A DNA stretch of 64,000 nucleotides from Sodalis ligni (GTDB lineage: Bacteria > Pseudomonadota > Gammaproteobacteria > Enterobacterales > Enterobacteriaceae), in the NCBI RefSeq assembly GCF_016865525.2, contig NZ_CP075169.1, positions 186,001-250,000 on the forward strand. The letters run 5' to 3'. Made by a program: the position numbers and the translations under genes. Each line of letters begins with the position of its first letter. Within the stretch, counting starts at the first letter, position 1. The notes beneath the pieces were generated by a model, which was given only the letters and a program-made list of their open reading frames with translations, was not told the origin of the DNA and ran no database searches. Of this stretch, positions 43,724 to 58,307 are shown in pieces.

Positions 43724-44152
43724 ATGAACACCGCCCCGGTCTATCTCAATCCCGAAGGCGCCTGCCCGGCGCAAGGACTCTATTCCCACGCGACGCGGGT
43801 GAGCACCGGCACGATGTATTATCTGGCCGGTCAGCTCTCCGTGGCGGAGGATGGCGGCGTTGCCGGGAAGGGAGACTTCGCCGCTCAGTTTATCCAGGTG
43901 TTCGCCAATCTTGAGGCGGTGCTGAAGGGCTTGGGTCTGGGCTGGCGGGATATCGTCAAATTCACCACCTTTATGGTGCACTCACAGCATATTGAATTGT
44001 TTATGCGGCTGCGCGCCGAGCACTTTCCCCATTTTTTTTCCGGCGATCTGTTTCCCCCCAATACCTTGCTGGTGGTGAACCGGCTGGTGAAAGAGGACTT
44101 TTTGCTGGAAGTGGAGGCTATTGCCTGCAAAAGCGCTGAAGATTTACGGTGA
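43724..44152 (+). CDS. RidA/YjgF-family protein
   Basis: A 142-residue protein of the Rid family, which includes enamine/imine deaminases. The fold signatures are MYYLAGQLSVAEDG, AAQFIQVFANLEAVLKGLGL, DIVKFTTFMVHSQH and PPNTLLVVNRLVKEDFLLEV. In RidA proper an Arg (R105) binds the substrate carboxylate; here an Arg is present in VVNRLVKEDF, though the R-x-x-V context differs. AGAGGA precedes the ATG. It opens the catabolic island and faces a GntR-type gene 150 bp downstream. Probably removes reactive intermediates in this pathway. Confidence 0.85.
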   Translation: MNTAPVYLNPEGACPAQGLYSHATRVSTGTMYYLAGQLSVAEDGGVAGKGDFAAQFIQVFANLEAVLKGLGLGWRDIVKFTTFMVHSQHIELFMRLRAEHFPHFFSGDLFPPNTLLVVNRLVKEDFLLEVEAIACKSAEDLR

Positions 44153-44304
44153 GATTGAAATAATTCCCGGCGGACAGGAAAGGCATGAAATAGTACACTG
44201 TTGCAGTTGGCGGGGCCGATAAGCAGCGATATTCCGGATGCCGCGGTGCGATAGCTCCGGGCTGGGGCGGCCTATGACAAATGAATTGATGACGGAATAA
44301 CAAC

Positions 44305-44997
44305 ATGCCCTCAGTGATGCTCGCCGGCGGGTCCGCAATGCCGGAGCCGATGTCGTTGCCGGAAATAGTCTACCGAAAACTGCGTGATGCGATTCTCAAC
44401 GGCGTCTATGCCCCCGGCGCCATGCTGCGCCAGGAAGAAGTGGCCGCCCAGTTGGGCGTCAGCCGCAATCCGCTGCGGGAGGCGCTGCCCCGTTTGGAGT
44501 CCGAGGGCATCGTGGTGCTGTATCCCCGGCGCGGTTATGCGGTGGTGAAACTGGATCCCACAGAAATATGCAATGTGTTTGATTTGCGTATTTTATTGGA
44601 AACGGACCTGGTGGCCCGCTCCGTCGTGCTGAAGACCAAAGCCGATGAGCAGCGGGTCCAATCCATTCTCGACGATATGGCGCTGCTGGTGGAGCAGGCG
44701 GAAGCCGCTGACAGAACCCGCTGGTTCGATTTGAACCTGCGCTTTCATGACGCCATGCTGCTGCCGGCCCGCTGTCCGCACCATATGAAAGCGCTGGCCC
44801 AGTCGCGAGGTGCGCTGGAGGCCTATATACGCGCCGAGGTCCGGTTGACGGGGGATCTTAACCAGGCCCAAAGGGAACATGCCGAACTGACCCTGGCGTT
44901 TATCTCCGGCGATAAGGACCGGCTGATCCGGCTGACCCGGGAACATTCCGAACACACCCGCGATCGACTGTTGCGCGGGCTGCCGCGCTGGCAATAG
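44305..44997 (+). CDS. GntR-family regulator (FCD type)
   Basis: A 230-residue regulator: N-terminal winged helix with IVYRKLRDAILNGVYAPGAM, LRQEEVAAQLGVSRNPLREA and LPRLESEGIVV; C-terminal FCD helical domain (about 95-225) with the metal/effector-binding Asp/His pattern (FDLNLRFHDAML and HAELTLAFISG). The start at 44305 has a poor ribosome site; ATG 44338 is an alternative. One of three FCD regulators in the island; likely ligand a carboxylate of the pathway. Confidence 0.87.
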   Translation: MPSVMLAGGSAMPEPMSLPEIVYRKLRDAILNGVYAPGAMLRQEEVAAQLGVSRNPLREALPRLESEGIVVLYPRRGYAVVKLDPTEICNVFDLRILLETDLVARSVVLKTKADEQRVQSILDDMALLVEQAEAADRTRWFDLNLRFHDAMLLPARCPHHMKALAQSRGALEAYIRAEVRLTGDLNQAQREHAELTLAFISGDKDRLIRLTREHSEHTRDRLLRGLPRWQ

Positions 44998-45037
44998 ACG
45001 TCCCCGAAGAAAGGGACTCATCGTCCCCCTTCCTGAT

Positions 45038-46261
45038 TCAGCTCGCCTTCTTAAGATGACGGCTATAGGTTTCATACAGCCAGCGATTGAATTCCGGCAG
45101 GATTTTTTCCAGATGGGAATAGCGGCCGCGGGGGGCGAAGCGGGATTTAAAGGCCTTCTGCATGGTCATATTGGTCTCTTCATCCTGCTCGCCGAAGGTT
45201 TCCGTTGAGGAAATCTGTACTTTGCGCATCCAGTCAAAATTGGGCAGTTCGGTGGTTTCCTTCGGATAGTAGAAGTTAATCAATAGATCGATGGAACCCA
45301 CCGAACGGGGAAACACCCGGAAGGTGAACGCCTGGTCCGGCAGCAGACAGAAGAACAGCGTGGGGGGAACCGAGGAAAAAATCGTTCGGCGCCGCTCTTC
45401 GTCGGTAAGATCCTTTAGAATCGGGAACTGCGCTTTCTGGCTCGGGTTAAAGGCCGCATCCTGGCGCATACCTTCAAAGTAGGTGGAGTGGGTTAAGTAA
45501 TTTTCACCCTCCTGCCAGTCGTCCCATTCGGAGAAACGGGCGTTTTCCGCCGGGGCTATTTCATGGAATCCCTTGTGCACATAGGAGGTGTGATAGGGTT
45601 CCAGGCCGTTTTCCAGCGTGATCTTCCAGTTCCAGGGATAATTCTGGTGCGCCAGGGTCGGCATCACCTGCATGTCGGCGAAATTATAGTGCCGCAGCTC
45701 TTCGTCGGCTTTCGCCAAGGTCGGCGCCAGCGGCGCGGCGTTCATATCGAAGTTGGCGAAAATAAAGCCGTGGAACAGCTCCATCTTGAGCTCCGGCAGC
45801 GCGGTATCTTCACGCTGCTGGGTAATGGGAATGGTCATGCCCATTTCCGGCGCCGCGCGCAGTTTACCGTCCAGGCGATAGGACCAGGCATGGTAAGGGC
45901 AGCTGAAGGTGACGCAGTTACCGGTTTTTTCCTCCGCGCAGTCACGTATCAGCGGATGGCCGCGATGCTGGCAGATGGCGGACAACACCTTGATGGAGCC
46001 GTCGTTTTGCCGTACCACCAGCAGCGGTTCGTCGATGATTTCAACGGTGAAATAATCCCCCGGATTGGGAATCTGGTTTTGATGGCCCAAAGCCAGCCAG
46101 CTTTTGGAAAAAACCGCCTGCTTTTCGAATTCGAAAAAAGCCTCTGAGGTATAAAATTCACTGGGCAGCGAACGTGCCTGGGTGAAATCTTTAATGGACG
46201 CTTCCATCATTTTGAGCAGTTCATCGATATTCACATCTGATTGAGTTTGTTTAATGCCCAC
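45038..46261 (-). CDS. Rieske-type aromatic-ring-hydroxylating oxygenase, alpha subunit
   Basis: A 407-residue oxygenase component. The Rieske centre ligands are in CQHRGH (C97, H99) and CPYH (C121, H124); the mononuclear iron site is in LENGLEPYHTSYVH (H224, H229). This layout fits ring-hydroxylating or demethylating Rieske oxygenases that need a separate reductase. The start is a GTG at 46259-46261 with GGAGG five bases upstream; the reading frame runs 24 codons further without a site. It follows the NTF2-like and VOC genes on the same strand after 106 bp. The matching reductase is probably the PDR-type gene at 56.2 kb. Confidence 0.88.
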   Translation of the reverse strand: MGIKQTQSDVNIDELLKMMEASIKDFTQARSLPSEFYTSEAFFEFEKQAVFSKSWLALGHQNQIPNPGDYFTVEIIDEPLLVVRQNDGSIKVLSAICQHRGHPLIRDCAEEKTGNCVTFSCPYHAWSYRLDGKLRAAPEMGMTIPITQQREDTALPELKMELFHGFIFANFDMNAAPLAPTLAKADEELRHYNFADMQVMPTLAHQNYPWNWKITLENGLEPYHTSYVHKGFHEIAPAENARFSEWDDWQEGENYLTHSTYFEGMRQDAAFNPSQKAQFPILKDLTDEERRRTIFSSVPPTLFFCLLPDQAFTFRVFPRSVGSIDLLINFYYPKETTELPNFDWMRKVQISSTETFGEQDEETNMTMQKAFKSRFAPRGRYSHLEKILPEFNRWLYETYSRHLKKAS

Positions 46262-46367
46262 AGCTACCTCCGGCAAGAATGAGTTGTCATGAGTGACATC
46301 GGGATGGGTTGTTGGTAAATGCTGCAACCCCACAGCGAATCAACATCAAAGGGTTCGGCCTTTATGA

Positions 46368-46865
46368 TCAGGGCGATACCAATTCCATCTGCAATCCCCA
46401 GGGCGTCAGAAAATAAACCCAGCGGCGGCCCGCCAAGGGATGATCCGGGCCGATGACCGAAGGTTCGCCGAGAATTTTTACCCCCGGCACCTGCCGCAGG
46501 GCCGCCAGCGCCTGCGGGAGATTGTGCACGGTGATGCCAAGATGGGCGCCGCCGGCGTCACAGTTCCTCGGCATGGCCCGGTTAAGGTCCGGCGCCCGGT
46601 ATTCGAATAATTCCAGCGCCGTGCCCAGGAAATCCAGCTTGGCCAGGCGGCAGGCGGCCTCGGGGTGCGTATTGAAGCGTTCCGCCATCGACGCCGCATT
46701 GTCCGGACCGGGCCGGTAATGGCGGCGATATAATTCGCGCGCCCCCAGGACCTGGATAAAGAATGCCGTCGCCGCGTCCAGATCCGGGACGGTGAGGGCG
46801 ACGTGGTCCACCCTGCCGCATGACAGCACCGGCGCGGCGAGCGGCTGCGGAGTGCCGGGCTTCAT
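46368..46865 (-). CDS. VOC-family protein (glyoxalase/extradiol-like)
   Basis: A 165-residue single-chain VOC protein with paired beta-alpha-beta-beta-beta modules: RVDHVALTVPDLDAATAFFI, LELFEYRAPD, GGAHLGITVHNLPQALAAL and VYFLTPWGLQMELVS. Potential metal ligands are the His in VDHVAL, the His in AHLGIT and the final Glu in QMELV. It could isomerise or cleave a pathway intermediate. Start overlaps the stop of the NTF2-like gene as ATGA. Confidence 0.82.
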   Translation of the reverse strand: MKPGTPQPLAAPVLSCGRVDHVALTVPDLDAATAFFIQVLGARELYRRHYRPGPDNAASMAERFNTHPEAACRLAKLDFLGTALELFEYRAPDLNRAMPRNCDAGGAHLGITVHNLPQALAALRQVPGVKILGEPSVIGPDHPLAGRRWVYFLTPWGLQMELVSP

Positions 46866-47371
46866 GTTTTATCGTCCAGCGCGGCGAAGCGTTCTTTCAG
46901 CCAGCCCGCCCCATAAGGCGTGCGGAACTCGATATAAAGCTTGAGATGCCTGAAACGCCAGACGCCGTTACGGCGCTCAAACACATCGTCATAGCGGCCG
47001 CCCATCCACAGCGCCATCCGGTCCTGAAATGTGCAGGGTTCAAGAAGTTTCCAACTGCCGCGGCCCCGTTCGCCGGCGACGTATATAGATTCGTTCATTA
47101 AATAGTGAGTGGTAAAAGAGAGCCGGCGCGGGCTGGCCTCGAACATATCGGCAATGGCGTCATGGCCGGTAACCTTGTTGGCCGTACCCTGCGCCTCGCT
47201 TTCCCAGATACCGTCCGGCCAGAACAAATCGGCCACCGCCCGCCCGAGCTTATCGTCGCAAGCCTGCATATAGTCCGCTTTCAAACGGCGGATGGCATCT
47301 TGGGATTCCAGGGCGTCCAGGCGCTGTAGCAAAGACTGTTCGTCACCGGTCAGGTTTCTGTCAATGGGCAT
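46862..47371 (-). CDS. NTF2-like (SnoaL/ring-hydroxylase beta-like) protein
   Basis: A 169-residue NTF2-fold protein: RLDALESQDAIRRLKADYMQ, LFWPDGIWES, HYLMNESIYVAGERGRGSWK and RRNGVWRFRHLKLYIEFRTP. This fold includes the small beta subunits of ring-hydroxylating dioxygenases and also SnoaL-like cyclases and isomerases, so it may be the partner of the Rieske alpha subunit or a separate enzyme. It heads an operon with the VOC and Rieske genes, and its promoter shares a direct repeat with the transport operon. Confidence 0.78.
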   Translation of the reverse strand: MPIDRNLTGDEQSLLQRLDALESQDAIRRLKADYMQACDDKLGRAVADLFWPDGIWESEAQGTANKVTGHDAIADMFEASPRRLSFTTHYLMNESIYVAGERGRGSWKLLEPCTFQDRMALWMGGRYDDVFERRNGVWRFRHLKLYIEFRTPYGAGWLKERFAALDDKT

Positions 47372-47378
47372 GATGTTC

Positions 47379-47416
47379 TTTGGATATTATTTTGGATACA
47401 ATATAAAATACAATAT
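47379..47416. promoter_or_regulatory. GGATA direct repeat and ATACAATAT repeat, island operon promoter
   Basis: TTTGGATA occurs twice, 12 bp apart (47379-47386 and 47391-47398), and ATACAATAT follows twice, also 12 bp apart (47396-47404 and 47408-47416). The GGATA pair recurs with the same spacing at 53671-53692 upstream of the ABC operon. It lies between the NTF2-like gene and the divergent GntR gene at 47544. Confidence 0.5.
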
Positions 47417-47543
47417 GCGCCGGTGATTTATCACTGTCAACAGGCAAAAGTGGATATTGGAAAATGCGTATGACATGCTAGATTTCCTTGCCGGACATGA
47501 AACTTTTAACTTTCTTTTTTCAGCGATATAAGAAAAACAACCT

Positions 47544-48182
47544 ATGAAGACTTCGAAAAGGCAAACGGCCACCGGGCGGACAACCGAGCGCATCCGGGAA
47601 CTGATCATCAGCGGCGAAATCGGTGCCGGCGAAACCTTGCGTCAGGAAGAACTTTCGGTCCGTCTGGGCGTTTCACGCACACCGCTGCGGGAAGCGATTA
47701 TCATCCTGCAAGCCGAGGGTCTGGTGATTAACCATCCCCACAAAGGCACCGTGGTCTACAAACCCACCGTGGCGGAGCTTGAGGAAATTTACGCTACCCG
47801 CCTGCTGCTGGAGCCGGCGGCGGCCCGATTGGCGACCCGCAACATGACGCCGGAAGCGCTGCTGGACGTGGATCGCATCGTGCATGAGATGACCGCCACC
47901 ACCACGCCCTGGCAGTTAATCCGCCTTAATCATGAATTCCGCTATACCTTTTATTCCGCTTCCGGCAACCGAACGCTGGCGGACACCATCCGCGGTCTGA
48001 CGCTGCGCGCCGAACCCTATGTCGGCATACTGGTAAGCGGGCTGAACCGGCCTTTCACCGATCAAGCCTTCGCCGCCCTGTTGGACGCTATCCGCGCCGC
48101 TGACGGCGACCGCGCCGCCGCCGTCACCCAGGCGCACCTCGAGGCGACGGTGGCCAACGTTCTGCCGATGCTGCAGCGCTGA
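47544..48182 (+). CDS. GntR-family regulator (FCD type)
   Basis: A 212-residue regulator with the winged helix TTERIRELIISGEIGAGETL, RQEELSVRLGVSRTPLREAI and an FCD domain (about 80-210, ATRLLLEPAAARLATRN, LNHEFRYTFYSASGN). It is divergent from the NTF2-VOC-Rieske operon across 172 bp that contain paired repeats, so control of that operon is the likely role. Its last 17 codons are repeated, diverged, right after the stop (see the duplication at 48131-48241). Confidence 0.88.
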   Translation: MKTSKRQTATGRTTERIRELIISGEIGAGETLRQEELSVRLGVSRTPLREAIIILQAEGLVINHPHKGTVVYKPTVAELEEIYATRLLLEPAAARLATRNMTPEALLDVDRIVHEMTATTTPWQLIRLNHEFRYTFYSASGNRTLADTIRGLTLRAEPYVGILVSGLNRPFTDQAFAALLDAIRAADGDRAAAVTQAHLEATVANVLPMLQR

Positions 48183-48241
48183 GTCCGCTAAGGCGCACCT
48201 AGGAGCGGCGGTGGCCGGCGTCCTGCCGATGCCGCGGCGCT
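48131..48241 (+). repeat. Duplicated 3' end of the GntR gene
   Basis: GGCGCACCT begins two copies 61 bp apart, 48131-48180 (inside the gene) and 48192-48241 (after it). Both end CTGCCGATG with a C/G-rich CGGCGCT or CAGCGCT tail. The second copy reads AHLGAAVAGVLPMPRR and a stop, similar to the gene's own C-terminus. Confidence 0.7.
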
Positions 48242-49070
48242 AAAGCGCGTCGAGAAACCGGCTTACGGTGCGGTTGAATTCGCCGGGATGCTCGTAAAAA
48301 GGCAAATGTCCGCACCGTTCAATGGTGTGCAGCCGCGCCCTGGGGAAACATGCCACCGCGGCTTCGGCGCGGGCATGGCTGGCACGGGGATCCTGGCGTC
48401 CCCACAGCAGCAGGGTGGGGGCGGCGACCTCATTGAGCCGTTCGGCGACCCGGAAGGGCCGTGCCCGATTTACATCCAGCATGGCCGCCAGCAGCGATTT
48501 ATAAGCCTGGGCGGCGCCTTCCCTGGCATAGGCCGTTAATTGGCTCAAAATCAGCGGGTCGAAATCCAGCGTTCCGTCAAAACAGAGATTCGCCAGGCGC
48601 TGCCGGCAACTGTCCCAGGTGGCGGTATCAAAGGCGCTGCTGCCGTTGGCCAGGGTCTTGCCCAGGGTTGCCACGGTTTCGGCTTCGGTTTGCAGCGCGG
48701 TGCCGCTGCCCACCACCACCAGGCGCTTTATCCGCGCCGGCATACGTAAGCAGAGCAGCAGGGCAAGCTGGGCGCCGAATGAGCTGCCGACAATGGAGAA
48801 TTGTTCAAAGTCCAGCCGGTCCACCAGCGCCTCCAGATGCGTCATTAGGGCGGCATGGCCGATATCGCCGCGATCGTCATACAGATCGGTAAAGCCATGG
48901 CCGAGCAGATCCGGCGCGCAAACGCGCCGCCGTGCCCCCAGGTCGGCCAGATTACGCAGCCAGACATCGGCGGAAAACCCCACCGGATGCAATAACAGCA
49001 GCGGTTCTCCGCGACCCGATTCAATCACCCGGGTGCGGATGCCCCCCGCCGTCAAAAATTGGATATGCAT
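48240..49070 (-). CDS. Alpha/beta hydrolase, meta-cleavage-product-hydrolase-like
   Basis: A 276-residue alpha/beta hydrolase: oxyanion strand LLLLHPVGFSADVW near 26-39, nucleophile elbow VGSSFGAQLALLL near 93-105 with Ser, acid in LLWGRQDPRASHAR, and His in ERCGHLPFYEHPGEF. The fold and the gene order (directly after a VOC ring-cleavage-like gene) suit a C-C hydrolase such as MhpC/BphD, though lactonases (PcaD) look alike. ATG 49070 has GAGGAGG upstream, two bases after the preceding stop; longer frames overlap that gene. Last gene of the transport operon. Confidence 0.82.
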   Translation of the reverse strand: MHIQFLTAGGIRTRVIESGRGEPLLLLHPVGFSADVWLRNLADLGARRRVCAPDLLGHGFTDLYDDRGDIGHAALMTHLEALVDRLDFEQFSIVGSSFGAQLALLLCLRMPARIKRLVVVGSGTALQTEAETVATLGKTLANGSSAFDTATWDSCRQRLANLCFDGTLDFDPLILSQLTAYAREGAAQAYKSLLAAMLDVNRARPFRVAERLNEVAAPTLLLWGRQDPRASHARAEAAVACFPRARLHTIERCGHLPFYEHPGEFNRTVSRFLDAL

Positions 49071-49072
49071 GG

Positions 49073-50041
49073 TCAGGCCTCCTCGCGCAGGCAGGCCAAT
49101 GCGTCGGCGCGGGAAGCTTCTCGGGGCAGGAGGGCGGCGCCGGTATAAAACGCGAGATAGATGCTGTTCGGGTCGCGGGAAAAACAGCGGGCGCCTTCCT
49201 GCCGGGTTTGCCGAGCCATCCCCGCCGGCATGGCCGGCTGGGAGAGCAGAAAGGATTGGGGGGCGATTAAAAACCACAGGGAGTGCAGTCCCGCCTGCTC
49301 ATCCCTTCCCGCCGCCACCAGGGCCACGCAGGCATGTTGTTGCCCGGGCAGACCCAATAGCGCCGCCTCCCCGCTCTGGCTGATAAGCTCCAGACCGGCG
49401 ATGCGCCGATAGAAATCCAGTGAGCGCGGCAAATCGGCGACAAAAAATGTCCCGCCGCAGATCTCCATCGACTGGAGGGCCGCGCCGTCCACCCGGGTGT
49501 CTAGCCGGGGCAAAGGCTCAAAGGCCGGGAAAGGCGGCGTTGTCAGCGGATCCCAGCGGGCGCTGATCAGGTTATTTTGGTTTTCGGCATAAAAACCGCG
49601 CCAATCGGGCACGCTGTCGATATAGAACTCCACGGCGTTGCCGTCCGGATCGTAGAGATACAGGCTGCGGGACATGCCGTGATCCAGCGCCTTTTCCACT
49701 GCGATATCAAAACGTTCGGCGTTGCGGTAGGCCTCGATAAGCGACGCCTCGCTGCAGACGTGAAAAGCGATATGATTGAGGCCGGGCTGTCGGCCGCGAA
49801 CCATGGTGTTCTGTACGCTGCCGTCCCGGCCGATCAGCGGGGCGCTGGAAACCTGCATTAATCCCATGTCGTGATGGGTGGCGCCGTTGCTGAGGAATCC
49901 CGCCTTGATGCCGGGTTCGCGAAAGACTTCGGTCAGGCCGCAGACATCCCGGTAGAACGCCACGGACTCGTTCACATCCGCCACGAAAATATTCGCATGG
50001 GCGAAGCGGTCGGGACGGAAAAGTGCAGTATTTGCGGACAT
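49073..50041 (-). CDS. Two-domain VOC protein, extradiol-dioxygenase-like
   Basis: A 322-residue protein of two VOC modules. The first (about 10-150) keeps a likely iron triad: His in RFAHANIFVAD, His in GLNHIAFHV, Glu in DPDGNAVEFYID, and the family's Y-x-x-D-P-D-G-N run. The second (about 175-300) has the fold but lacks such ligands. This suits catechol 2,3-dioxygenase-like enzymes, but in classical ones the iron sits in the C-terminal module, so another reaction is possible. GGAGAG precedes the ATG at 50041. Between the permease and hydrolase genes of one operon. Confidence 0.8.
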   Translation of the reverse strand: MSANTALFRPDRFAHANIFVADVNESVAFYRDVCGLTEVFREPGIKAGFLSNGATHHDMGLMQVSSAPLIGRDGSVQNTMVRGRQPGLNHIAFHVCSEASLIEAYRNAERFDIAVEKALDHGMSRSLYLYDPDGNAVEFYIDSVPDWRGFYAENQNNLISARWDPLTTPPFPAFEPLPRLDTRVDGAALQSMEICGGTFFVADLPRSLDFYRRIAGLELISQSGEAALLGLPGQQHACVALVAAGRDEQAGLHSLWFLIAPQSFLLSQPAMPAGMARQTRQEGARCFSRDPNSIYLAFYTGAALLPREASRADALACLREEA

Positions 50042-50068
50042 TTTTCTCTCCAATCAATTACCCGGACA

Positions 50069-50824
50069 TTACCGGAAGCGGGCGACGACGCTTTTTTCCA
50101 AGGCCGACATCACCAAAAACAGCAGGATGCCGAAACCGCCGGCCATCAGCGTCGCGGCCCACAGCAGGGCGATGCTGTCGCTTTGCATGGCGGAAATCAG
50201 CAGCGGGCCGATACCCTGATCCAGCCCGAACCATTCGCCGAAAATGGCCCCCACCATGGCGGCCGGCGCCGCCACTTTCAGGCCGGACATAAACGTCGGC
50301 AGGCATGCCGGCAGTTCCAGATGAAAAAATCGTTTGTTGCCGGGGCAGTCCAATACCGCGAACAGATCGTAATGGGCCTGGTTGACCTCGGCGAAACCGG
50401 ACAATGTGGCGATAAATACGCTGAAAAAGACAAAAAAGGCGGCCACCGCGATGGGGAGATCCTGGCGTTCCATCGTCGCCAGCAGTACCGGCCCCAGGGC
50501 TATCACCGGCGTTGCGTTGATAATGGCCGCCAGCCGGGTGATACCCGGCCTGAGCCAATGGCCCAGCTGGGCCATGACCGCCAGCAGCGTGCCGATAAGG
50601 ATGCCGATAAAATAGCCGCGAAATGCGCTGTCGGCGGTGTGCAGCAGCGCATCAAGGAACACCGCGTGGTTTTCCGGCGCCAGAAATTGCCCGATAACCT
50701 CGCTCAGCGGCGGTATCACCCCGCGCAGCCAGGACGATCGGCCGCCGGCTTCCCATAACGCCGGCAAAATGAAGGCCCCGGCTAAAGCATACAGCCGCTG
50801 GCGCCGTAACAGGCGAGTCGTCAT
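50069..50824 (-). CDS. ABC transporter permease
   Basis: A 251-residue inner-membrane permease of the SsuC/TauC type with six predicted segments. The EAA loop reads ELPACLPTFMSGLKVAAPAAMVGAIFGEW, which contacts the ATPase. AGGTG precedes the ATG. Second permease of the importer; the pair with the 53-kb permease implies a heterodimer. Confidence 0.88.
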   Translation of the reverse strand: MTTRLLRRQRLYALAGAFILPALWEAGGRSSWLRGVIPPLSEVIGQFLAPENHAVFLDALLHTADSAFRGYFIGILIGTLLAVMAQLGHWLRPGITRLAAIINATPVIALGPVLLATMERQDLPIAVAAFFVFFSVFIATLSGFAEVNQAHYDLFAVLDCPGNKRFFHLELPACLPTFMSGLKVAAPAAMVGAIFGEWFGLDQGIGPLLISAMQSDSIALLWAATLMAGGFGILLFLVMSALEKSVVARFR

Positions 50825-50837: not shown

Positions 50838-51704
50838 TCAACATAAATCCTCCCCGGCTTCCAGCTCATCCAGCGCCAGGGTCAATTCATCGGACAACGC
50901 ATGAAACTGCGGGCTGCGCATGATCTCCGGCTGGCGCGGGCGCTGGAAAGGTATGCGCCTTTCCATCCGCACCCGGCCCGGACGGGGCGACATCACAATG
51001 ACCCGATCGGCGAGAAAAATGGCCTCTTCCACCGAGTGGGTGACCAATAACGTCGTCAGCCGTTCGGCGCTCCACAGCGCCTGTAATTCAATATTCAGCC
51101 GCCGTCTCGTCACCGCGTCCAGTGCGCCGAACGGCTCGTCCAGCAGCAGCAATTCCGGCCGCAAAACCAGGGACCGTGCAATGGCTACCCGCTGGCGCAT
51201 GCCGCCGGAAAGCTGTTTCGGCCGGGATTTCTCGAAGCCGGTCAGGCCCATCAGATTGAGCAGCCAGGCGATGCGCTGTTCATTCACTTTATGTCCGGTG
51301 ATTTTGCAGGGCAGCGCCACATTGTCCCAAGCGGAAAGCCAGGGCAGCAGGGCATGGTCCTGAAAGGCCACGCCTAATCGGTTGTTTTTGATGAACTCTC
51401 CCGGTCCGTCGCAGCCGTCCATCACCAGTTTCCCGCCGCTTGGGGTCTCAAGGCCCGCGATAAGGCGCAGAATGGTGGATTTACCGCAGCCCGACGGGCC
51501 AATCAGCGCGACGAATTCATATTTACCGATGTGCAGATCGACATTATCCAGCGCGGTGAATTCGCCGCCGCCGCTGGCAAACCGCTTGGAAACCTGCTTG
51601 AGATCCACCAGCACATGCTGCCCGGACGCGGGCTGTTGCGCCGGTATGATTTCTTCAGCCGGCGTCCCGGCGGTCGCCGCCGTAGAGGTTGATGAAAGCT
51701 GCAT
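50838..51704 (-). CDS. ABC transporter ATP-binding protein
   Basis: A 288-residue ATPase of the nitrate/sulfonate/taurine importer family (SsuB/TauB-like). Walker A is GPSGCGKST, signature LSGGMRQRVAIARSL, Walker B LLLLDEPFGALD, and the His loop LLVTHSVEEA. A Thr/Ser/Ala-rich N-terminal tail precedes the core. The ATG at 51704 is ten bases after the binding-protein stop; longer frames run into that gene. Part of the island importer. Confidence 0.92.
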   Translation of the reverse strand: MQLSSTSTAATAGTPAEEIIPAQQPASGQHVLVDLKQVSKRFASGGGEFTALDNVDLHIGKYEFVALIGPSGCGKSTILRLIAGLETPSGGKLVMDGCDGPGEFIKNNRLGVAFQDHALLPWLSAWDNVALPCKITGHKVNEQRIAWLLNLMGLTGFEKSRPKQLSGGMRQRVAIARSLVLRPELLLLDEPFGALDAVTRRRLNIELQALWSAERLTTLLVTHSVEEAIFLADRVIVMSPRPGRVRMERRIPFQRPRQPEIMRSPQFHALSDELTLALDELEAGEDLC

Positions 51705-51714
51705 GGCGTGTCTC

Positions 51715-52752
51715 TTAGAGTAATTGGGTCCGATTGCCGAAGACCTCTTCGAGCAGGCTGGTATCCACATAGCTATCCACCGCGGGCAGCTGGGTTTCGC
51801 CGGCCGCGCGCAGCGCCGCATAAATGGGGCCGCTGATTTTGGTCTTGTCGATCCAGAGCATGCCTTTGTCGCGGGTCAAATCGCTTTGCGTCAGCGGAAC
51901 CATGGCCTGATTGACCCGGAGCTGATGGGGCTGATCGATTTTCATGGAGCCGGCGTAGCGTTCCGCCACCAGTTTCGGCGCCAGGGTGGGATCTTTGGCA
52001 TTCATTTCCCAGCCTTTGATACTGCCGCGCAGGAAGCCGAGAATAACTTTGCGGTTTTTGGCGATAGCGTCGCTGCTGACCACAATCGGGCTGGTATAGG
52101 TGGGCAGTCCCATAGCGGCGAACAGGATCATATTGGTTTTCACCCCCTGTTCCGCCAGCGTCACCGGTTCGGAGGTGGCGAACACGCTGATGATGTCGAC
52201 GCTGCCTTTGGTCAGCGGTGTGGAGTCATAGCCGATGGGCACAAAGGTATAGCCGTTGGCCGGCAGGCCATTGATTTTGAATACGGCGTCAAGCTCGCGC
52301 TGACGTCCTTGGGCGGCGCCGATCCGCTTGCCCACCAGATCCTTGGCGCTGTTCAGCGGCAGGCTTTGCAGGCTGATGAGGGCCAGGGGCGAAGTCTGGA
52401 ATACGGAGCCGATGACCGTCAGCTTGGCCTGGTGCTGAACAGCATTGATAGTGCTGGTGAGAAAGGTCGGCAAGCCGGCGGTACCGGCGCCGCCGGCCAC
52501 GACCTGCTCCACGCCCTGCATATTGGGGCCGCCGGGCAGGAACTTCACGCCGATGCCTTCCTGTTTGTAATAACCCAAGGCGTCGGCGATATAAAAGCCG
52601 GCGAAATCCACGCTCGGGATCCAGTTCAGCTGCAATGAGACCGTATTGCCGACGGCGGCAAGGACGACGCCGGGGCCGAACAGCGATGCGATGGTAATGC
52701 CTGCGCCGGCGGCGGTGAGTAAACGGCGACGGCTGATGTGACCTTCTTTCAT
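51715..52752 (-). CDS. ABC transporter substrate-binding protein, Tat signal (NMT1/SsuA-like)
   Basis: A 345-residue periplasmic binding protein. The N-terminus SRRRLLTAAGAGITIASLFG is a Tat-type signal ending near AAVG. The mature domain (VSLQLNWIPSVDFAGFYIAD, LGYYKQEGIGVKFLPGGPN) matches NMT1/THI5-like proteins, which bind thiamine precursors, sulfonates or aromatic acids such as phthalate. AAGAGGAAA precedes the ATG. The ligand cannot be told from sequence. Confidence 0.9.
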   Translation of the reverse strand: MKEGHISRRRLLTAAGAGITIASLFGPGVVLAAVGNTVSLQLNWIPSVDFAGFYIADALGYYKQEGIGVKFLPGGPNMQGVEQVVAGGAGTAGLPTFLTSTINAVQHQAKLTVIGSVFQTSPLALISLQSLPLNSAKDLVGKRIGAAQGRQRELDAVFKINGLPANGYTFVPIGYDSTPLTKGSVDIISVFATSEPVTLAEQGVKTNMILFAAMGLPTYTSPIVVSSDAIAKNRKVILGFLRGSIKGWEMNAKDPTLAPKLVAERYAGSMKIDQPHQLRVNQAMVPLTQSDLTRDKGMLWIDKTKISGPIYAALRAAGETQLPAVDSYVDTSLLEEVFGNRTQLL

Positions 52753-52785
52753 TTTTTTTCCTCTTTATAATATCTGTGCAGGGAA

Positions 52786-53595
52786 TTAACGAAACTTCAT
52801 GCTCACTTTTCTTTCCAACCCGCTTGCGATACCGAAGATCACCAGCGATAGCACTACGCCGATCAGGCTGACTTGCCAGGCCTGGTCGGTATCCATAATC
52901 TGTTGCGCTTTTGCCAGCCGGTAGCCCAGGCCGCGGGTGCCCAGCAGCCACTCGGCGGTCAGCGCGCCCACCACGCTGAGCATGGCGCTGATGCGCAGCG
53001 CGGTGATGATGTTCGGCACCGCGGCAGGCAAGGCCACGTGCAGATAATGCCGGCGTTTGCCGGCCCCCAGCACGTGGAGCAAATCCGCGGCCCCCGGCGG
53101 TATGCTGTCCAGGCCGGAGCGCGTCAGCACAAAGGCCGGAAAATAGGAAATCAGCGCGGCGATGACGATGATGGTGTAAAGGGTGTAGCCGAATATCGAC
53201 GCGACGATGGGAATCAGGGCGATGGACGGCAAGGTATTGAGCAAAATGGTCAGCGGCGTCAATACCCCCGACAGCATGGGAGAAAACCAGCTGAGGGAGG
53301 CCACCGTGATGCCTAGCAGCATTCCCAGGCCCAAGCCCGTACCGATGACCATCAGGGTGGTCAGCAGGTCGGGCAGGTATTGGGCGAATCCGGTCACCGT
53401 CCCGGCCAAGGTTTGCAGGGGGGAGGGGGCAATAAGCGCGGGAACATCGTCCAGCACCAGCCAACACTGCCACAGCAGGATGATCAGGCAGTAAGGCCAT
53501 ATCATTCGGATAAGTCCTGCGGCGGCCCGGCCGGCTCCGCGACCGATGTCCTTTGTGCCGGCGGGCGGCGGCGCGGGTACTTCTCTTGCGGCCAT
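52786..53595 (-). CDS. ABC transporter permease
   Basis: A 269-residue permease of the SsuC/TauC type with six segments; EAA loop LHVALPAAVPNIITALRISAML. The ATG at 53595 has AAGGGGG seven bases upstream; an earlier ATG 13 codons before has none. First gene of the operon permease-binding protein-ATPase-permease-VOC-hydrolase. Its promoter (53600-53700) holds the GGATA direct repeat shared with the 47-kb operon. Confidence 0.87.
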   Translation of the reverse strand: MAAREVPAPPPAGTKDIGRGAGRAAAGLIRMIWPYCLIILLWQCWLVLDDVPALIAPSPLQTLAGTVTGFAQYLPDLLTTLMVIGTGLGLGMLLGITVASLSWFSPMLSGVLTPLTILLNTLPSIALIPIVASIFGYTLYTIIVIAALISYFPAFVLTRSGLDSIPPGAADLLHVLGAGKRRHYLHVALPAAVPNIITALRISAMLSVVGALTAEWLLGTRGLGYRLAKAQQIMDTDQAWQVSLIGVVLSLVIFGIASGLERKVSMKFR

Positions 53596-53670
53596 AAAAA
53601 TCCCCCTTGTCCCGTTACGTCCAAAAAACTGCATTTTTTTCGCCCATGGCGGTTTGCACCGGTTTAATGC

Positions 53671-53692
53671 AATTTCGGATAAAATTTTGGAT
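53671..53692. promoter_or_regulatory. GGATA direct repeat, ABC operon promoter
   Basis: AATTTCGGAT and AATTTTGGAT (53671-53680, 53683-53692) are repeated with 12-bp spacing, about 80 bp upstream of the permease start. The 12-bp spacing and the GGATA-N2-ATTTTGGATA core equal those at 47379-47398, so one regulator probably binds both. Confidence 0.5.
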
Positions 53693-53707
53693 ATTTTGAA
53701 TTTTATG

Positions 53708-53736
53708 CAAAAGCCGCTCCAATTTCGGCGGCTTTA
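53708..53736 (-). terminator. Terminator after the FAH-family gene
   Basis: On the minus strand AGCCGC and GCGGCT pair around CGAAATTGGA and are followed by TTTTGC. It lies 33-61 bases after the stop of the FAH gene and before the promoter of the ABC operon. The T-run is short, so strength is uncertain; it could work in both directions. Confidence 0.5.
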
Positions 53737-53768
53737 CAGACAGAAGCAGTCTGTTTTTTGTACTTACC

Positions 53769-54647
53769 TTACTCGCGCAAGGCTAAAACGGGATTGACTA
53801 ACCTACCGATAGGCTGAATCTCAATCTCCACACGGTCGCCGTGACGCAGGAATCGGGGTGGAGTGAAACCGATTCCGACCCCGGCGCAGGTGCCGGTGGC
53901 GATGATATCGCCGCTCTCAAGGGACATGGTTCGGCTGATGGTTTCAATCAGCGTGGGGATATCGAAAATCAGGTCGGCAACGCCGGCATGCTGCCGCAGC
54001 TCGCCGTTGACCCAGGTTTTAAGCTGCAATTGCTCCGGGGCCGGGATTTCGTCCGCAGTGACGATGGCAGGCCCCATCGGGCAGTAGCCGTCCAGGCTTT
54101 TGCCCAGGAACCATTGGCGATGGGTCTGTTGCAGGGTGCGGGACGTCACGTCATTTACGATGGTATAGCCGAACACATGGGTAAGGGCGTCAGCTTTGGC
54201 GATATTACGGCCGCCCCGCCCTATTACCACCGCCAGTTCACCCTCGTAATCCGTGGATTCGCTGTAGTCGAGATAGGCGGGTATGGCCATCTCGGGGCCG
54301 ATGACCGACGACGGCGCCTTGGTAAAAATCACGGGGAATTCAGGGGTGTTTTCGCTGGCGCTGGCATCAAACCCGCTGGCCTGGAACTCCACGGCGTGCT
54401 GATGGTAGTTTTTACCGACGCATAGAATATTGCGCGCCGGGCGGGGAATCGGGGCCAGCAGCTGTACTCGGTCCAGCGCCACCCAGTCGCCATGGTCTTC
54501 GTCGGGGTTATCTATCTGTGCAAACCGCCGGATCAGATGCAGCATATCGCTGCCCGCCTCACCGGGAAAAGCCTGTACCGCGGTGCCGGCGGTATTAAGG
54601 CGGCCGACCCGCACCACTCCTTCCAAGGCATAACTCACCAATTTCAT
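53769..54647 (-). CDS. Fumarylacetoacetate hydrolase (FAH) family protein
   Basis: A 292-residue hydrolase/isomerase of the FAH family. The metal-binding acids are in STDYEGELAVVIG (E-x-E) and further Asp in the C-terminal half; family stretches NILCVGKNYHQHAVEF, HVFGYTIVNDVTSRTLQ, GKSLDGYCPMGPAIV and DIIATGTCAGVGIG are complete. Members hydrolyse fumarylpyruvate or hydrate/decarboxylate oxo-acids from ring cleavage, which fits the island. GAGGAG precedes the ATG. Upstream lie CCAA/TTGG repeats facing the GntR gene. Confidence 0.88.
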   Translation of the reverse strand: MKLVSYALEGVVRVGRLNTAGTAVQAFPGEAGSDMLHLIRRFAQIDNPDEDHGDWVALDRVQLLAPIPRPARNILCVGKNYHQHAVEFQASGFDASASENTPEFPVIFTKAPSSVIGPEMAIPAYLDYSESTDYEGELAVVIGRGGRNIAKADALTHVFGYTIVNDVTSRTLQQTHRQWFLGKSLDGYCPMGPAIVTADEIPAPEQLQLKTWVNGELRQHAGVADLIFDIPTLIETISRTMSLESGDIIATGTCAGVGIGFTPPRFLRHGDRVEIEIQPIGRLVNPVLALRE

Positions 54648-54718
54648 GATTGGTTTTTCTCCTCTATGATCTCTGTAACGAGAAATGACAGCCTAGACCT
54701 TCCGGCACCCATATTCAA

Positions 54719-54767
54719 CCAATATTGAATTGGACTGCATAATTGGCTTGATTGGGCTGAAATTGGC
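54719..54767. promoter_or_regulatory. CCAA/TTGG operator cluster upstream of FAH gene
   Basis: CCAATATTGAATTGG (54719-54733) is followed by three more ATTGG boxes to 54767. Similar elements occur before the GntR gene itself and before the reductase gene, so this is a candidate binding region for that GntR. Confidence 0.45.
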
Positions 54768-54961
54768 TATTCCCCTTGGCAAACCGGCGGATTGCGCGGC
54801 GCGCTCGCACTGAATCAGCCCATCAACTGCCGCCACCGATAACCTTTTGCACCTTTTGAAGGCAATACTCGTCTTCAATGGCGCAAAACAAGGGGGAACT
54901 GATTCATATTTAGCGCTCCGTAATCAGGATATGGTATCCTAATCTACGTTTCGGGCCGCCG

Positions 54962-54985
54962 TTGGTTGTTCCAATGGGTAACCAA
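54962..54985. promoter_or_regulatory. TTGGTT/AACCAA inverted repeat before GntR gene
   Basis: TTGGTT and AACCAA are complementary, separated by 12 bases that contain another CCAA. Located 95 bp before the GntR start; self-regulation is inferred. Confidence 0.4.
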
Positions 54986-55080
54986 TCCATATCGGCCTGT
55001 TTTCCACCATTCCCGTACCGCAGGGTTCACGTCCCCTGGCAAACCCGCCGGGCCGTCGGCCGGCTCTGAAGGAGATCCCT

Positions 55081-55818
55081 ATGAAACCCGCTATGGAAGC
55101 ACAATCGGCAGCATCCTCGTCATCGACGTCCGCCAGGATTAAAACAAAAACGCATTCCGTTGCCGATCAGATCAAATCCTACCTGGTCCAGTTGGATCTG
55201 GCGAAAGGCGCGCGGCTGCCCGCCGAGCGGGAGCTGGCCCAGGCGCTGGGGATTACGCGCTCGATTTTGCGCCGGGGGCTGGATCAGCTTGATGCGGAAG
55301 GCTTTATCTGGCGTCATGTCGGCAAGGGCACATTCATCGGTTCGTCCCCCGCCGGTACTGCTTCCCTCAGCGCCGGTATGGACAGCTACATGAACCCGCA
55401 CGATTTAATGGAAGTGCGGCTTTTCCTGGAGCCTCCCGCCGTGGGCCTGGCGGCCATTCGCGCCACCACCGCCGAGCTCGATGAAATCCAGGCCTGCCTG
55501 GAGAATTCCCTGAAAGCCTCTACGGCGCTGGAATATGAACATTGGGACGGACGTTTGCACCGGGCCATCATCAAAAGCACGAAAAATTTGCTGTTGGTGA
55601 AAATCGGCGAATTGTTCGAGTCGGCGCGGGACGAACGGGTCTGGGGTAAGCTCAAGGAGCGCTCCTCCACCCCCGAGCGGCGCGAGCACTATAGCCGGCA
55701 GCACCGGGCCATCGTGAACGCGCTGCTCGATCGTAACCGTCATGAAGCCGAGTCGCAAATGCGCGAACACCTTATCGATGTTCAGACCGATCTGCTGCGG
55801 GCCAGCGGACAGGCCTAG
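55081..55818 (+). CDS. GntR-family regulator (FCD/FadR type)
   Basis: A 245-residue regulator. After a Ser/Ala-rich start comes the winged helix SVADQIKSYLVQLDLAKGAR, LPAERELAQALGITRSILRR, GLDQLDAEGFIWRHVGKGTF; the FCD domain follows (about 100-240; EVRLFLEPPAVGLAAIRAT, HWDGRLHRAIIKSTKN, HRAIVNALLDRN). AAGGAG precedes the ATG. It is divergent from FAH and upstream of the reductase gene, and CCAA/TTGG elements near all three starts make it the probable local regulator. Confidence 0.88.
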   Translation: MKPAMEAQSAASSSSTSARIKTKTHSVADQIKSYLVQLDLAKGARLPAERELAQALGITRSILRRGLDQLDAEGFIWRHVGKGTFIGSSPAGTASLSAGMDSYMNPHDLMEVRLFLEPPAVGLAAIRATTAELDEIQACLENSLKASTALEYEHWDGRLHRAIIKSTKNLLLVKIGELFESARDERVWGKLKERSSTPERREHYSRQHRAIVNALLDRNRHEAESQMREHLIDVQTDLLRASGQA

Positions 55819-56153
55819 CGAGATCGGGCGGGCCTTCGGGGCGCGGGGCCGCCACCGCTATGCCATGATGAACAATTTATTTGCCCGGACCCGCCGGTCG
55901 TATAACCTTTTTAAAACCAATTTGGCATTAATTAAACCAATTTGGAGCCAATTTGCCTGTTTTATGCATGCAGCATTGGCGCTATCCCTGTTACAGCGTG
56001 TTTAATCTAAATTTTGTATAATCTCCCCGCTGTTTGTCCCTGACTTTGTCAAACCATTACAATATTGGTTGATTTCATCTCGGACCGAAGGCTATAGTTA
56101 TCGCCGGGCGCTGACGTGCAGCTGGTTATCCGTAGGTGGCAGAGGTTTTGAAC
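55819..56153. other. Spacer before the oxygenase reductase gene
   Basis: 335 bases with no gene. It includes an AT-rich part with a set of CCAATTTGG boxes (55917-55956) and a later CAATATTGG (56060-56068), then the reductase leader with AGAGG before the ATG. Confidence 0.5.
55917..55956. promoter_or_regulatory. CCAATTTGG repeats upstream of reductase gene
   Basis: CCAATTTGG at 55917-55925 and 55937-55945 are 20 bp apart (two helical turns), followed by CCAATTTGC at 55948-55956. They resemble the sites near the FAH and GntR starts. Cooperative binding of a dimeric regulator is inferred. Confidence 0.5.
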
Positions 56154-57110
56154 ATGACCCATTCTCCCGACACTCTCGCCGTAAGATTGGTGCGCGTTAC
56201 GTATCTTACGGAGCATGTCAGCCTGTTTGAATTCGCCTCGCTGGACGGCGCCCCATTGCCGACCGCCGCCGCCGGCGCGCATATCGCTCTGCAACTGCCG
56301 AACCTGGGGGAACGCGCCTATTCCCTGGTTACCGACAGCAGACATCCCGAGCGCTACGCCATCGCCGTGAAGCGCGAACCGGCCGGACGGGGCGGTTCGC
56401 GGCATATGCACGATGTGCTCAGGGTGGGGCAGGTGATTACCGTCACCCCGCCGCGCAATCTGTTTGAACTTAACGAGCAGGCGGAGGAAACGCTGCTGTT
56501 CGCCGGCGGTATCGGCGTCACGCCGATCCTGAGCATGGCCCGCCGTCTGCAAGCCCTTAACCGTCCGTTCAGGTTCTTCTATTCCAGCCGCTCCCGTATC
56601 CATGCGCCGTTTCTTGAAGAGATCGCCTGTCTTCCCGACAGTCATTGCCGTTTTGGCGATGAACACGGGCGCGATCCCTCCTTCGGGCAGACCCTCGCCG
56701 GCACCTCGAGAAATGCCCATCTCTACTGCTGCGGTCCGGTGCCGATGATGGACGACTTTCTGACGGCTGCCCGCGCCGCCGGTTTTGCCGAGGAACATAT
56801 TCATGTGGAATATTTCGCCGCCAAGGAGACGCCGGCCCTAACGGGCGGTTTTGTGGTGAAACTGGCCCGCAGTAACCGCAGCCTGACGGTGAAGCCCGGA
56901 CAATCCATATTGTCGGCCCTTCGTGCCGCCGGCGTGGCCATGACCACGTCCTGTGAACAGGGGATTTGCGGCGCCTGCGAAGTCCGGGTGCTTTCAGGCC
57001 TGCCGGATCATCGCGACAGCGTTTTGACGGATGAGGAGAAACTGGCCAACCAAACCATGATGGTGTGCTGTTCCGGCGCGTTAAGCGGTGAACTCGTCCT
57101 GGATTTATAA
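56154..57110 (+). CDS. PDR-type reductase of a Rieske oxygenase (FMN/NAD/[2Fe-2S])
   Basis: A 318-residue electron-transfer protein of the phthalate dioxygenase reductase type: flavin-binding barrel with ERAYSLVTDSRHPERYAIAV, nucleotide domain LLFAGGIGVTPILSMARRLQ and a C-terminal plant-type ferredoxin TTSCEQGICGACEVRVL with the fourth Cys in MVCCSGALSG. It would pass NADH electrons to the Rieske oxygenase 10 kb away. ATG 56154 has AGAGG upstream; a GTG six codons before is less likely. Followed closely by an amidohydrolase-like gene. Confidence 0.9.
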   Translation: MTHSPDTLAVRLVRVTYLTEHVSLFEFASLDGAPLPTAAAGAHIALQLPNLGERAYSLVTDSRHPERYAIAVKREPAGRGGSRHMHDVLRVGQVITVTPPRNLFELNEQAEETLLFAGGIGVTPILSMARRLQALNRPFRFFYSSRSRIHAPFLEEIACLPDSHCRFGDEHGRDPSFGQTLAGTSRNAHLYCCGPVPMMDDFLTAARAAGFAEEHIHVEYFAAKETPALTGGFVVKLARSNRSLTVKPGQSILSALRAAGVAMTTSCEQGICGACEVRVLSGLPDHRDSVLTDEEKLANQTMMVCCSGALSGELVLDL

Positions 57111-57197
57111 CGGCCCTTGCGCCGCCGCCGGTACATTGTCGGCAGCGGTACGTTCAATTGTGGCACCGGCCACCCAGCAAAAGGAATATCCAGCGCC

Positions 57198-58307
57198 ATG
57201 ACGCAGAACAGGCTTTTTACCACCGTGCATGATGTACTCGATCCCCTGACCGGATTCCGCCACTCTTTACGCTGGCCCGCCGGCGGCGCGCTGCTTCGGG
57301 CGGATGCCTGGCCGAAAGGGCAAGGGCGGGATATCGACGGCAGCCATTTGTGGGTGCTGCCGGCGCTGTATGATGCCGATGCCCATTTGCCCATGGTGCC
57401 GTTCGGGGTCCGTCAGAGCGATTTGTACCGCGCCATGGCGGGGGGGATAGGTCAGATGAACGTCGCGCTGCCCTGGCAGCAGGCCAAACACTTCACGCTG
57501 CGGGAACTGGTTAACGACAGCGCCGGGTATTTCCCGGCCATCATACCGGTGCTCTCGGTCTCGCCGAATGAGGACAGTCGCGATTTCCCGCAATGGCTCA
57601 AGCAATATGCCGGGGAGGTAAAAGAGTGCCTGCCGTCGGTCTGTAAACTCTATTCCTACGATCCGCATTTCGAGCGCAATCTGGAGGCGGTGTGGCAGGC
57701 CGGGCTCAAGGCGGTGGTGTGGAACTCTACCGACGAAGCCCTTGAGCGTCTGGTGGTCAATGCCAATGCTTCGGGCCGGCCGCTGCATCTGCGGCACGCC
57801 GTTTCGGCCGGCATGATTGGTGTGATGCGCCGTGCCCGTCAGGCCACGCTGCAAAGCAGCCCGCATTTTCTGCTGCCGCTGGGGAAGGGTAAGCGAGAGT
57901 CCCTCACCGTTTTGCCTCCGCCCCGTCCGCCGGAGGATATCCAATCTCTGGCGGACAGCGTTTTAGACCAGGTGGATTTGCTTTCCAGCGACCATGGCGC
58001 GCCGCATCAGAGCGGCATTTCAGTCGGGCCGGGCTTGCAAACCCAGCAGCATTTTCTGCCGGTGCTGCTTACCCTTTGCGAACGTTATTCCTGGCCGCTG
58101 GAGTCCATATTGGCCAAAGTAACCCGGGCGCCGGCGAAGATTTTCGGCACTCGCGTGCCGCAGGGGGTGCTGCTGGTGGATCCTGATTACCGGGAAACCG
58201 TCGCTCCCTGGCCGAACCAGGCTTCGGACCGCGCGCCTTATGAGGGGCTGGAATTGACCGGCCGGGTATTGGCTATTAGCAATGACCGGCAGGTTTTGCT
58301 GGTGTAG
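57198..58307 (+). CDS. Amidohydrolase/dihydroorotase-like protein
   Basis: A 369-residue protein with the general plan of cyclic amidohydrolases: a beta start, WVLPALYDADAHLPM in place of the H-x-H strand, LRHAVSAG near 206, and SSDHGAPHQSG near 268, then CERYSWPLESILAKVTRAPA and KIFGT typical of the C-terminal part. The first metal motif H-x-H is D-A-D-A-H here, so metal binding and activity may be changed. AAGGA lies upstream of ATG 57198. It follows the reductase gene by 87 bp and ends the island before the repeat array. A role on a cyclic amide or lactone is possible but unproven. Confidence 0.6.
   Translation: MTQNRLFTTVHDVLDPLTGFRHSLRWPAGGALLRADAWPKGQGRDIDGSHLWVLPALYDADAHLPMVPFGVRQSDLYRAMAGGIGQMNVALPWQQAKHFTLRELVNDSAGYFPAIIPVLSVSPNEDSRDFPQWLKQYAGEVKECLPSVCKLYSYDPHFERNLEAVWQAGLKAVVWNSTDEALERLVVNANASGRPLHLRHAVSAGMIGVMRRARQATLQSSPHFLLPLGKGKRESLTVLPPPRPPEDIQSLADSVLDQVDLLSSDHGAPHQSGISVGPGLQTQQHFLPVLLTLCERYSWPLESILAKVTRAPAKIFGTRVPQGVLLVDPDYRETVAPWPNQASDRAPYEGLELTGRVLAISNDRQVLLV

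Follow-up and report, generated by a model that had tools for sequence, protein, structure and literature searches.

A 64,000-nucleotide stretch of the Sodalis ligni genome (contig NZ_CP075169.1, positions 186,001 to 250,000; hereafter the window) carries a 14.6 kb group of 16 genes at positions 43724..58307, none of which has an internal stop. We read this group as a catabolic cluster, conserved and so far undescribed, whose substrate would be a small N-heteroaromatic compound, probably one with a pyridine- or pyrimidine-like ring that bears hydroxyl or carboxyl groups, and consider the chances of this reading to be about even. In kind, the group would be an aerobic N-heteroaromatic catabolic cluster with one unusual enzyme family, a cyclic-amidohydrolase-like protein. 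The gene set, its intactness and conservation, the predicted folds and the metal-site residues form the basis from which the substrate class, the order of the steps and the products are proposed. The domain scan covered 18 window proteins between 43155 and 58811, and all NCBIfam rows among the matches listed for the scanned cluster proteins lay under the curated cut-offs, so the substrate cannot be read from homology names. An N-heterocycle is preferred because of the cyclic-amidohydrolase fold, the Mo-hydroxylase and TRZ/ATZ-like deaminase of the relatives and the type of the binding protein. The first-pass annotation, made from the letters of the window, had described a complete set for uptake, oxygenation, ring cleavage and hydrolysis, matching no known pathway. 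Every gene it named was found, the amidohydrolase by its sequence and the fold of a relative, P0121. As a whole, that interpretation is partly supported: a dedicated set is supported, since a large part of it is found again in Actinomycetota and Pseudomonadota, and the substrate is better read as N-heteroaromatic than simply as aromatic. Pathway-directed literature searches, mostly at title and abstract level, gave no described operon with this gene set, as the annotation had supposed, and no matching operon was found in the literature on thiamin, kynurenate and 2-hydroxypyridine.

The grouping of the genes is more than chance. The first 66 Rieske matches represent 47 distinct contigs of at least 5 kb, 15 of which are also among the amidohydrolase matches; in the later listed rows this applies to 1 of 35 contigs, one of the same 15. 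Contigs were equated by an identical number of bases, which is a proxy for the same contig. The annotation had proposed a search for the same gene set in other genomes. In the eight loci with the nearest Rieske proteins (L003-L010), the amidohydrolase is present in 7, RidA in 7 and FAH in 6. The control was 34 loci with a more distant Rieske protein (L011-L044), where the amidohydrolase, RidA, VOC1, VOC2 and the hydrolase were each found in 0/34 and FAH in 1/34. Thirteen amidohydrolase-bearing genomes, some on short contigs, were then compared, G752-G759 being reached via the Rieske protein and G815, G843, G1072, G1087 and G1478 via the amidohydrolase alone. Their stretches contain Rieske (13), SnoaL (13), cupin (9), FAH (8), RidA (8), VOC1 (6), VOC2 (5) and alpha/beta hydrolase (5) genes. 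The relatives also carry an XDH-type Mo-hydroxylase and a TRZ/ATZ-like deaminase; the Mo-hydroxylase occurs in 5 of the 13 stretches, and in a sixth, G1478, its identity reaches just 30-40%, in pieces. RidA and the cupin of G752 lie on a different contig from the amidohydrolase, and G1087 is represented by a 12 kb contig with the second Rieske type only (37%). GntR regulator 3 (gntR3) of the window is 43% identical to a GntR protein near the amidohydrolase gene in Acidocella.

Some further genes were seen in these relatives. The small cupin stands beside RidA and/or the Rieske gene in 9 of the 13 genomes (e.g., L008 9546-9956) and was not seen in the window cluster; it has no NCBIfam match and is assigned to Cupin_2 by Pfam in L006. 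An Acidimicrobiales contig (L003 257-1969) has a urease alpha subunit gene beside Rieske-RidA-cupin-Rieske, which may be chance or a hint of urea release. The Acidocella cluster (L009 4884-8914) includes an HpcH/HpaI-type aldolase, a second Rieske protein and a DIOX_N/2OG-Fe(II) oxygenase.

The amidohydrolase-like protein has no Pfam match at E 0.001 and matches allantoinase and dihydroorotase by sequence. The model of P0121, which is 96% identical to it, predicts a TIM-barrel amidohydrolase fold. Among the matches listed, 103 family relatives share at least 38% identity, and a Pfam domain was found in none of them. Instead of the H-x-H strand-1 motif of cyclic amidohydrolases, D-x-D-x-H is present in 24/24 aligned family members, placed on the VHVH of CAD dihydroorotase by a low-scoring profile alignment (3.8 bits). 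In these 24 proteins, the first metal His of allantoinase, dihydroorotase and hydantoinase is Asp, and the HLR of dihydroorotase is mostly HLP or HMP. The remaining putative ligands (K150, H198, H221 and D263) are invariant in the 24 sequences; both His and the Asp align in the profile comparison, and the Lys is assigned from the motif alone. The family is rare: with known members counted, it was found in 5/297 genomes of the genus of G753 (M. litorale), 4/35 of the family of G756 (F. canadensis), 1/249 of the family of G758 (Acidocella) and 2/198 of the order of G752, and a search in 398 genomes of the phylum returned the own genome only. A bolder proposal, to which we give a small chance, is that the family represents a novel type of ring-opening enzyme, which may depend on oxygen as KpiC of the 4-hydroxypyridine cluster kpi does, and is central to an undescribed route for a widespread natural N-heterocycle (e.g., a vitamin-derived pyrimidine or a pyridine carboxylate) common to actinobacteria and proteobacteria. 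The altered metal site is relevant to the question of how aromatic N-rings come to be opened by enzymes of the amidohydrolase fold.

The binding protein of the ABC importer is of the NMT1 type, as first annotated, but the phthalate type named alongside it is not supported: its nearest solved relatives are the THI5/ThiY-type proteins 4nmy, 3ix1 and THI5/THI13. The relation to pyrimidine/thiamin-type NMT1/THI5 proteins is one of sequence only, and the His of the L-x-W...H stretch of THI5, ThiY and 4nmy is replaced by Phe. Homologous binding proteins occur in 10 of the 13 relative stretches (34-38% identity in six, 25-27% in four), and the ATPase is 57-61% identical to the ATPases of six relative clusters and 39-41% to those of five. 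An importer of this type could also belong to a purine or pterin oxidation cluster, in which an HpxD-related Rieske protein would be combined with it and the amidohydrolase would open the ring, as in the xanthine/urate (NMT1-motif) riboswitch gene sets. The available part of the description of these sets lists NMT1/THI5-like, tauA, hcaE-type, PDR, DIOX_N and amidohydrolase genes (PMC7373994), and the DIOX_N protein of Acidocella and the Mo-hydroxylase and deaminase of the relatives would suit such a cluster. However, an NMT1-motif RNA is not among the five Rfam matches in window positions 40000-60000 (E up to 5), none was found at the gathering score in eight relative loci, and an extradiol dioxygenase, a C-C type hydrolase and FAH are without obvious use in such a route, which we consider unlikely.

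The Rieske protein and the non-haem iron site of the oxygenase are well conserved, the motifs C-x-H...C-x2-H and E-N-x-x-E-P-Y-H being present in 18/18 aligned homologues, the first of which is 99% identical to the window protein. In a tree of chosen sequences, displayed without support values, the window protein belongs to the same clade as the first Rieske protein of the cluster, next to Pusillimonas and unnamed relatives, and apart from the second Rieske protein that adjoins VOC2 in Frankiaceae and Acidimicrobiales. The PDR reductase is the likely electron donor of the oxygenase. Among five other genomes of the genus, Rieske homologues were found in G001, G002 and G005 at 29-31% identity and in G003 at 40% over about 210 residues, with none in G004 at the search threshold; a 30% homologue in the own genome has a glutamine-synthetase-like gene and a PDR reductase nearby, so these homologues were not taken to be orthologues. 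A search in 369 genomes of the class returned the own genome only. The best match in plasmid records (39%) comes from a Kozakia plasmid, where most neighbouring genes differ, and in a further record, from Novosphingobium, the matching stretch is without annotation. The own genome has a second Rieske oxygenase and PDR reductase at about 1.17 Mb (L069 7553-13329), with LLM-type, aldo/keto-reductase-like and glutamine-synthetase-like genes, named from translations, between or beside them.

VOC2 is predicted to have the two-domain VOC fold of Type I extradiol dioxygenases, shares their metal ligands and resembles catechol and homoprotocatechuate 2,3-dioxygenases, the two best matches among solved structures being 17-19% identical to it. 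Residues H19, H94, E142, H125 and Y132 are invariant in six sequences, and we take them to be the His/His/Glu metal triad and the acid-base His and Tyr. In known Type I enzymes, e.g., catechol 2,3-dioxygenase, the ligand set lies in the second domain, whereas in VOC2 it lies in the N-terminal domain. The alpha/beta hydrolase retains the G-x-S-x-G nucleophile motif in the alignment, and the best NCBIfam match of FAH among the matches listed is an HpaG-type model. Such enzymes, together with the Rieske-PDR pair, would also fit a phthalate-, homoprotocatechuate- or phenylpropionate-like pathway for a carbocyclic aromatic acid, consisting of Rieske dihydroxylation, extradiol cleavage, C-C hydrolysis and an FAH-type hydratase or isomerase. 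Yet a diol dehydrogenase, a Ring_hydroxyl_B-type beta subunit and an aldolase were found in 0/18 of the proteins scanned, and this pathway needs neither the cyclic-amidohydrolase marker nor the Mo-hydroxylase of the relatives; we regard it as improbable.

In the proposed N-heteroaromatic route, the NMT1-type importer would bring the substrate in, and a two-component Rieske oxygenase (alpha subunit and PDR reductase) would hydroxylate the ring, with a vicinal diol as a possible product. Ring opening would fall to VOC2, as an extradiol-type enzyme, to the cyclic-amidohydrolase-like protein, with a lactam or ureide as its substrate, or to both, after which the alpha/beta hydrolase may take off an acyl or formyl piece and FAH may cleave the final acylpyruvate-type acid. 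Carbon would leave as pyruvate-level acids and nitrogen as ammonia or amide. RidA, SnoaL and VOC1 would act as accessory proteins, and the three GntR proteins would control the operons. If the reading is true, a catabolic pathway of distantly related bacteria is defined by gene content, the Pfam-less amidohydrolase is a marker family for finding it, and its substrate is directly testable via one purified binding protein.

Several observations on the proteins and on the site weigh against this route. The best solved match of the Rieske protein is no heterocycle oxygenase: it is carnitine monooxygenase CntA (4.3e-37). The best NCBIfam match among those listed is GbcA, and a Glu occupies the bridging place of the alpha subunit, as in CntA and GbcA themselves. 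The cluster might then act on a quaternary amine or betaine in the manner of CntAB/GbcAB, by N-dealkylation or C-hydroxylation. The GbcA score of 131.6, however, is below the equivalog cut-off of 670, and such a route has no need for the extradiol dioxygenase or the amidohydrolase of the cluster, which makes it quite unlikely. The 13 relative stretches showed no homologue of PDR, and no Mo-hydroxylase or deaminase is among the 18 window proteins scanned. VOC2 and the alpha/beta hydrolase are both absent from 8 of the 13 stretches and may serve a side branch; the same count suggests that the amidohydrolase-like protein is the constant ring opener, yet this protein was also the search key. SnoaL (12/34) and the ABC ATPase (19/34) are common in the control loci, and thus neither is specific to the cluster. 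RidA has P-x-N-T in 9/9 aligned proteins (window and eight cluster relatives) and is without the canonical catalytic Arg, which archetypal RidA carries in a P-A-R-S motif; its score against TIGR00004 is 53 bits vs a cut-off of 106.25, outside archetypal RidA. In a tree of 23 chosen FAHs, eight actinobacterial cluster FAHs stand together (support 0.98), and the window FAH lies outside, grouped with Variovorax-type FAHs (0.92); it was therefore probably recruited separately. Its identity to FAH of Acerihabitans sp. KWT182, of an enterobacterial genus, is 87%.

At the site itself, an rpoH-like sigma factor gene and a transketolase gene flank the cluster on one side and panM(panZ)-liv genes on the other. 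For cluster genes other than the Rieske gene, the sister genomes were searched at this rpoH-panM site only. Of these genes, just gntR1-FAH-gntR3 are found there in G002 and FAH alone in G005, and G001 and G004 lack them all; the G003 contig ends before the site is covered. Identities are 87% (G005) and 79% (G002) for FAH, 81% for gntR1 and 75% for gntR3 (both G002). This divergence runs with that of panM (91% in G005 and 78% in G002), as expected of genes passed down within the genus, which the three appear to be. Their arrival in one horizontal insertion was rejected, given the same site in sisters, the panM-like divergence and the FAH tree. The "island" of the first-pass annotation, taken as one foreign insert, was thus not upheld; no tRNA gene was found at the cluster border, and no transposase or integrase marking it is among the proteins scanned. 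A patchwork without joint function, in which resident FAH-GntR genes adjoin unrelated neighbours, would agree with these three genes standing without the rest in sister genomes and with a window FAH in its own clade. Against it, the other genes are linked repeatedly across phyla. In addition, an 84% FAH match and a 78% amidohydrolase match both lie on contigs of 145257 bases, a size shared by no listed Rieske match, which makes it probable that the linkage of the amidohydrolase to this type of FAH predates the window strain. We hold a patchwork to be very unlikely and read the cluster as an old one, lost in pieces by sister lineages; the alternative is that cluster genes were inserted in three places.

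Other features of the site were noted. The transketolase gene (40461-42512), between rpoH and the cluster, has a counterpart in G005 and none in the stretches retrieved from G001, G002 and G004. A 108-bp tandem repeat (58315-58679; 3.4 copies, 96% match) separates the amidohydrolase-like gene from panM, with relatives at another place in sister locus L091 (4774-5250). Rfam Ysr224 (Yersinia sRNA 224) is matched at 40313-40418 on the minus strand with 90 bits vs a gathering score of 70. An open reading frame of 147 aa at 43155-43598 has no Pfam match, and a similar-looking product was seen by eye near the same place in L091 (15370-15951). An FAH match named "Martelella alba" and G002 (L093) are both on a 225281-base contig, and G002 is placed in the enterobacterial genus of the window, a possible naming conflict in public records.

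The genes and their coordinates are collected in Table 1. Starts of the Rieske (46261), alpha/beta hydrolase (49070), ATPase (51704) and amidohydrolase (57198) genes are proposed from homologue lengths, the frames being verified open. As the annotation had stated, the importer and the cleavage/hydrolysis genes lie in one operon-like run on the same strand, from FAH to the alpha/beta hydrolase, with gaps of 134, 33, 10, 13, 15 and 2 bp. The other runs are SnoaL-VOC1-Rieske (gaps of -4 and 106 bp), PDR-amidohydrolase (87 bp) and ridA-gntR1 (152 bp).

Table 1. Genes of the cluster in order along the window (positions in the window).
Gene product	Position	Strand	Basis
RidA-family protein	43724..44152	+	Pfam PF01042; alignment of 9
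GntR/FCD regulator 1 (gntR1), apparently genus-resident	44305..44997	+	Pfam scan; 81% to G002 copy
Rieske oxygenase alpha subunit	45038..46261	-	Pfam scan, motifs, tree
VOC1, single-domain VOC protein	46368..46865	-	Pfam PF00903
SnoaL_4 / NTF2-like protein	46862..47371	-	Pfam PF13577
GntR/FCD regulator 2 (gntR2), divergent from SnoaL-VOC1-Rieske	47544..48182	+	Pfam scan
Alpha/beta hydrolase, C-C hydrolase / deformylase type	48240..49070	-	Pfam, sub-cut-off NCBIfam rows, alignment
VOC2, two-domain VOC, extradiol dioxygenase-like; putative active site in N-terminal domain	49073..50053	-	
ABC permease	50069..50824	-	Pfam PF00528
ABC ATPase	50838..51704	-	Pfam PF00005
NMT1/THI5-type substrate-binding protein	51715..52752	-	Pfam PF09084
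Second ABC permease	52786..53634	-	Pfam PF00528
FAH-family hydrolase, apparently genus-resident	53769..54647	-	Pfam PF01557; sister-genome identities; tree
GntR/FCD regulator 3 (gntR3), apparently genus-resident	55081..55818	+	Pfam; 75% to G002 copy
PDR-type reductase (FAD + plant-type 2Fe-2S)	56136..57110	+	Pfam PF00111 etc.; sub-cut-off NCBIfam rows
Cyclic-amidohydrolase-like protein, family without Pfam model	57198..58307	+	Sequence matches, motifs, fold of relative P0121

The word ATATTGTAT occurs at 43676-43690, upstream of ridA, and at 47390-47404, upstream of SnoaL-VOC1-Rieske (0.06 expected, the word being chosen after seeing the sequence), and is a possible GntR operator. The word AACCAATATTG, upstream of FAH and PDR, was likewise noticed after looking, in a number not above chance; the FAH promoters of the two sister loci lack it. 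Given the post hoc choice of both and the chance number of the latter, neither was given weight as evidence. Scans for promoters and terminators did not rise above chance.

The window cluster was set apart from the known systems hpxDE, lum and kpi by their published descriptions. With hpxDE and the NMT1-motif riboswitch gene sets it shares a Rieske-type oxygenase, PDR, an NMT1-type transport protein and amidohydrolases, whereas the available part of that source (PMC7373994) lists no FAH, VOC2 or RidA among its gene types. The lumichrome cluster lum of Nocardioides simplex has a Rieske protein, an extradiol dioxygenase, FAH and transport genes in common with the window (PMC12746152). Lumichrome/quinoxaline degradation of this type would further agree with the actinobacterial relatives, which resemble lum in its xanthine oxidase, retro-aldolase and cupin genes as well (PMC12746152). 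However, lum has a fused P450, a two-subunit thiamin pyrophosphate (TPP) decarboxylase and an alpha/beta Rieske oxygenase with separate ferredoxin and reductase, and its substrate is a larger, fused-ring one (PMC12746152). The P450, decarboxylase and alpha/beta Rieske domains are present in 0/18 of the proteins scanned, and a lum-type function is extremely unlikely. By analogy, the nearest worked precedent is the kpi cluster for 4-hydroxypyridine of Arthrobacter sp. IN13, which follows the same logic without the window cluster being a member. According to the accessible portions of the paper (PMC7356986), 4-hydroxypyridine is converted to 3,4-dihydroxypyridine, the ring is opened by an amidohydrolase-family dioxygenase and an alpha/beta hydrolase acts next; FAH was proposed as the last step and not shown by the authors, according to whom none of the known ring-opening dioxygenases has a homologue in kpi. 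In the same portions (PMC7356986), the first step belongs to a flavin monooxygenase, a type not found among the window proteins scanned, and Rieske is never mentioned; KpiC, with 475 aa, belongs to Pfam01979, unlike the amidohydrolase-like protein of the window, and transport relies on an SLC-type permease rather than an ABC importer. The two clusters have in common an alpha/beta hydrolase, an amidohydrolase-family ring opener, FAH and a FadR-family regulator, and the kpi route from an N-heterocycle to formylpyruvate, as far as described there (PMC7356986), resembles the one proposed for the window.

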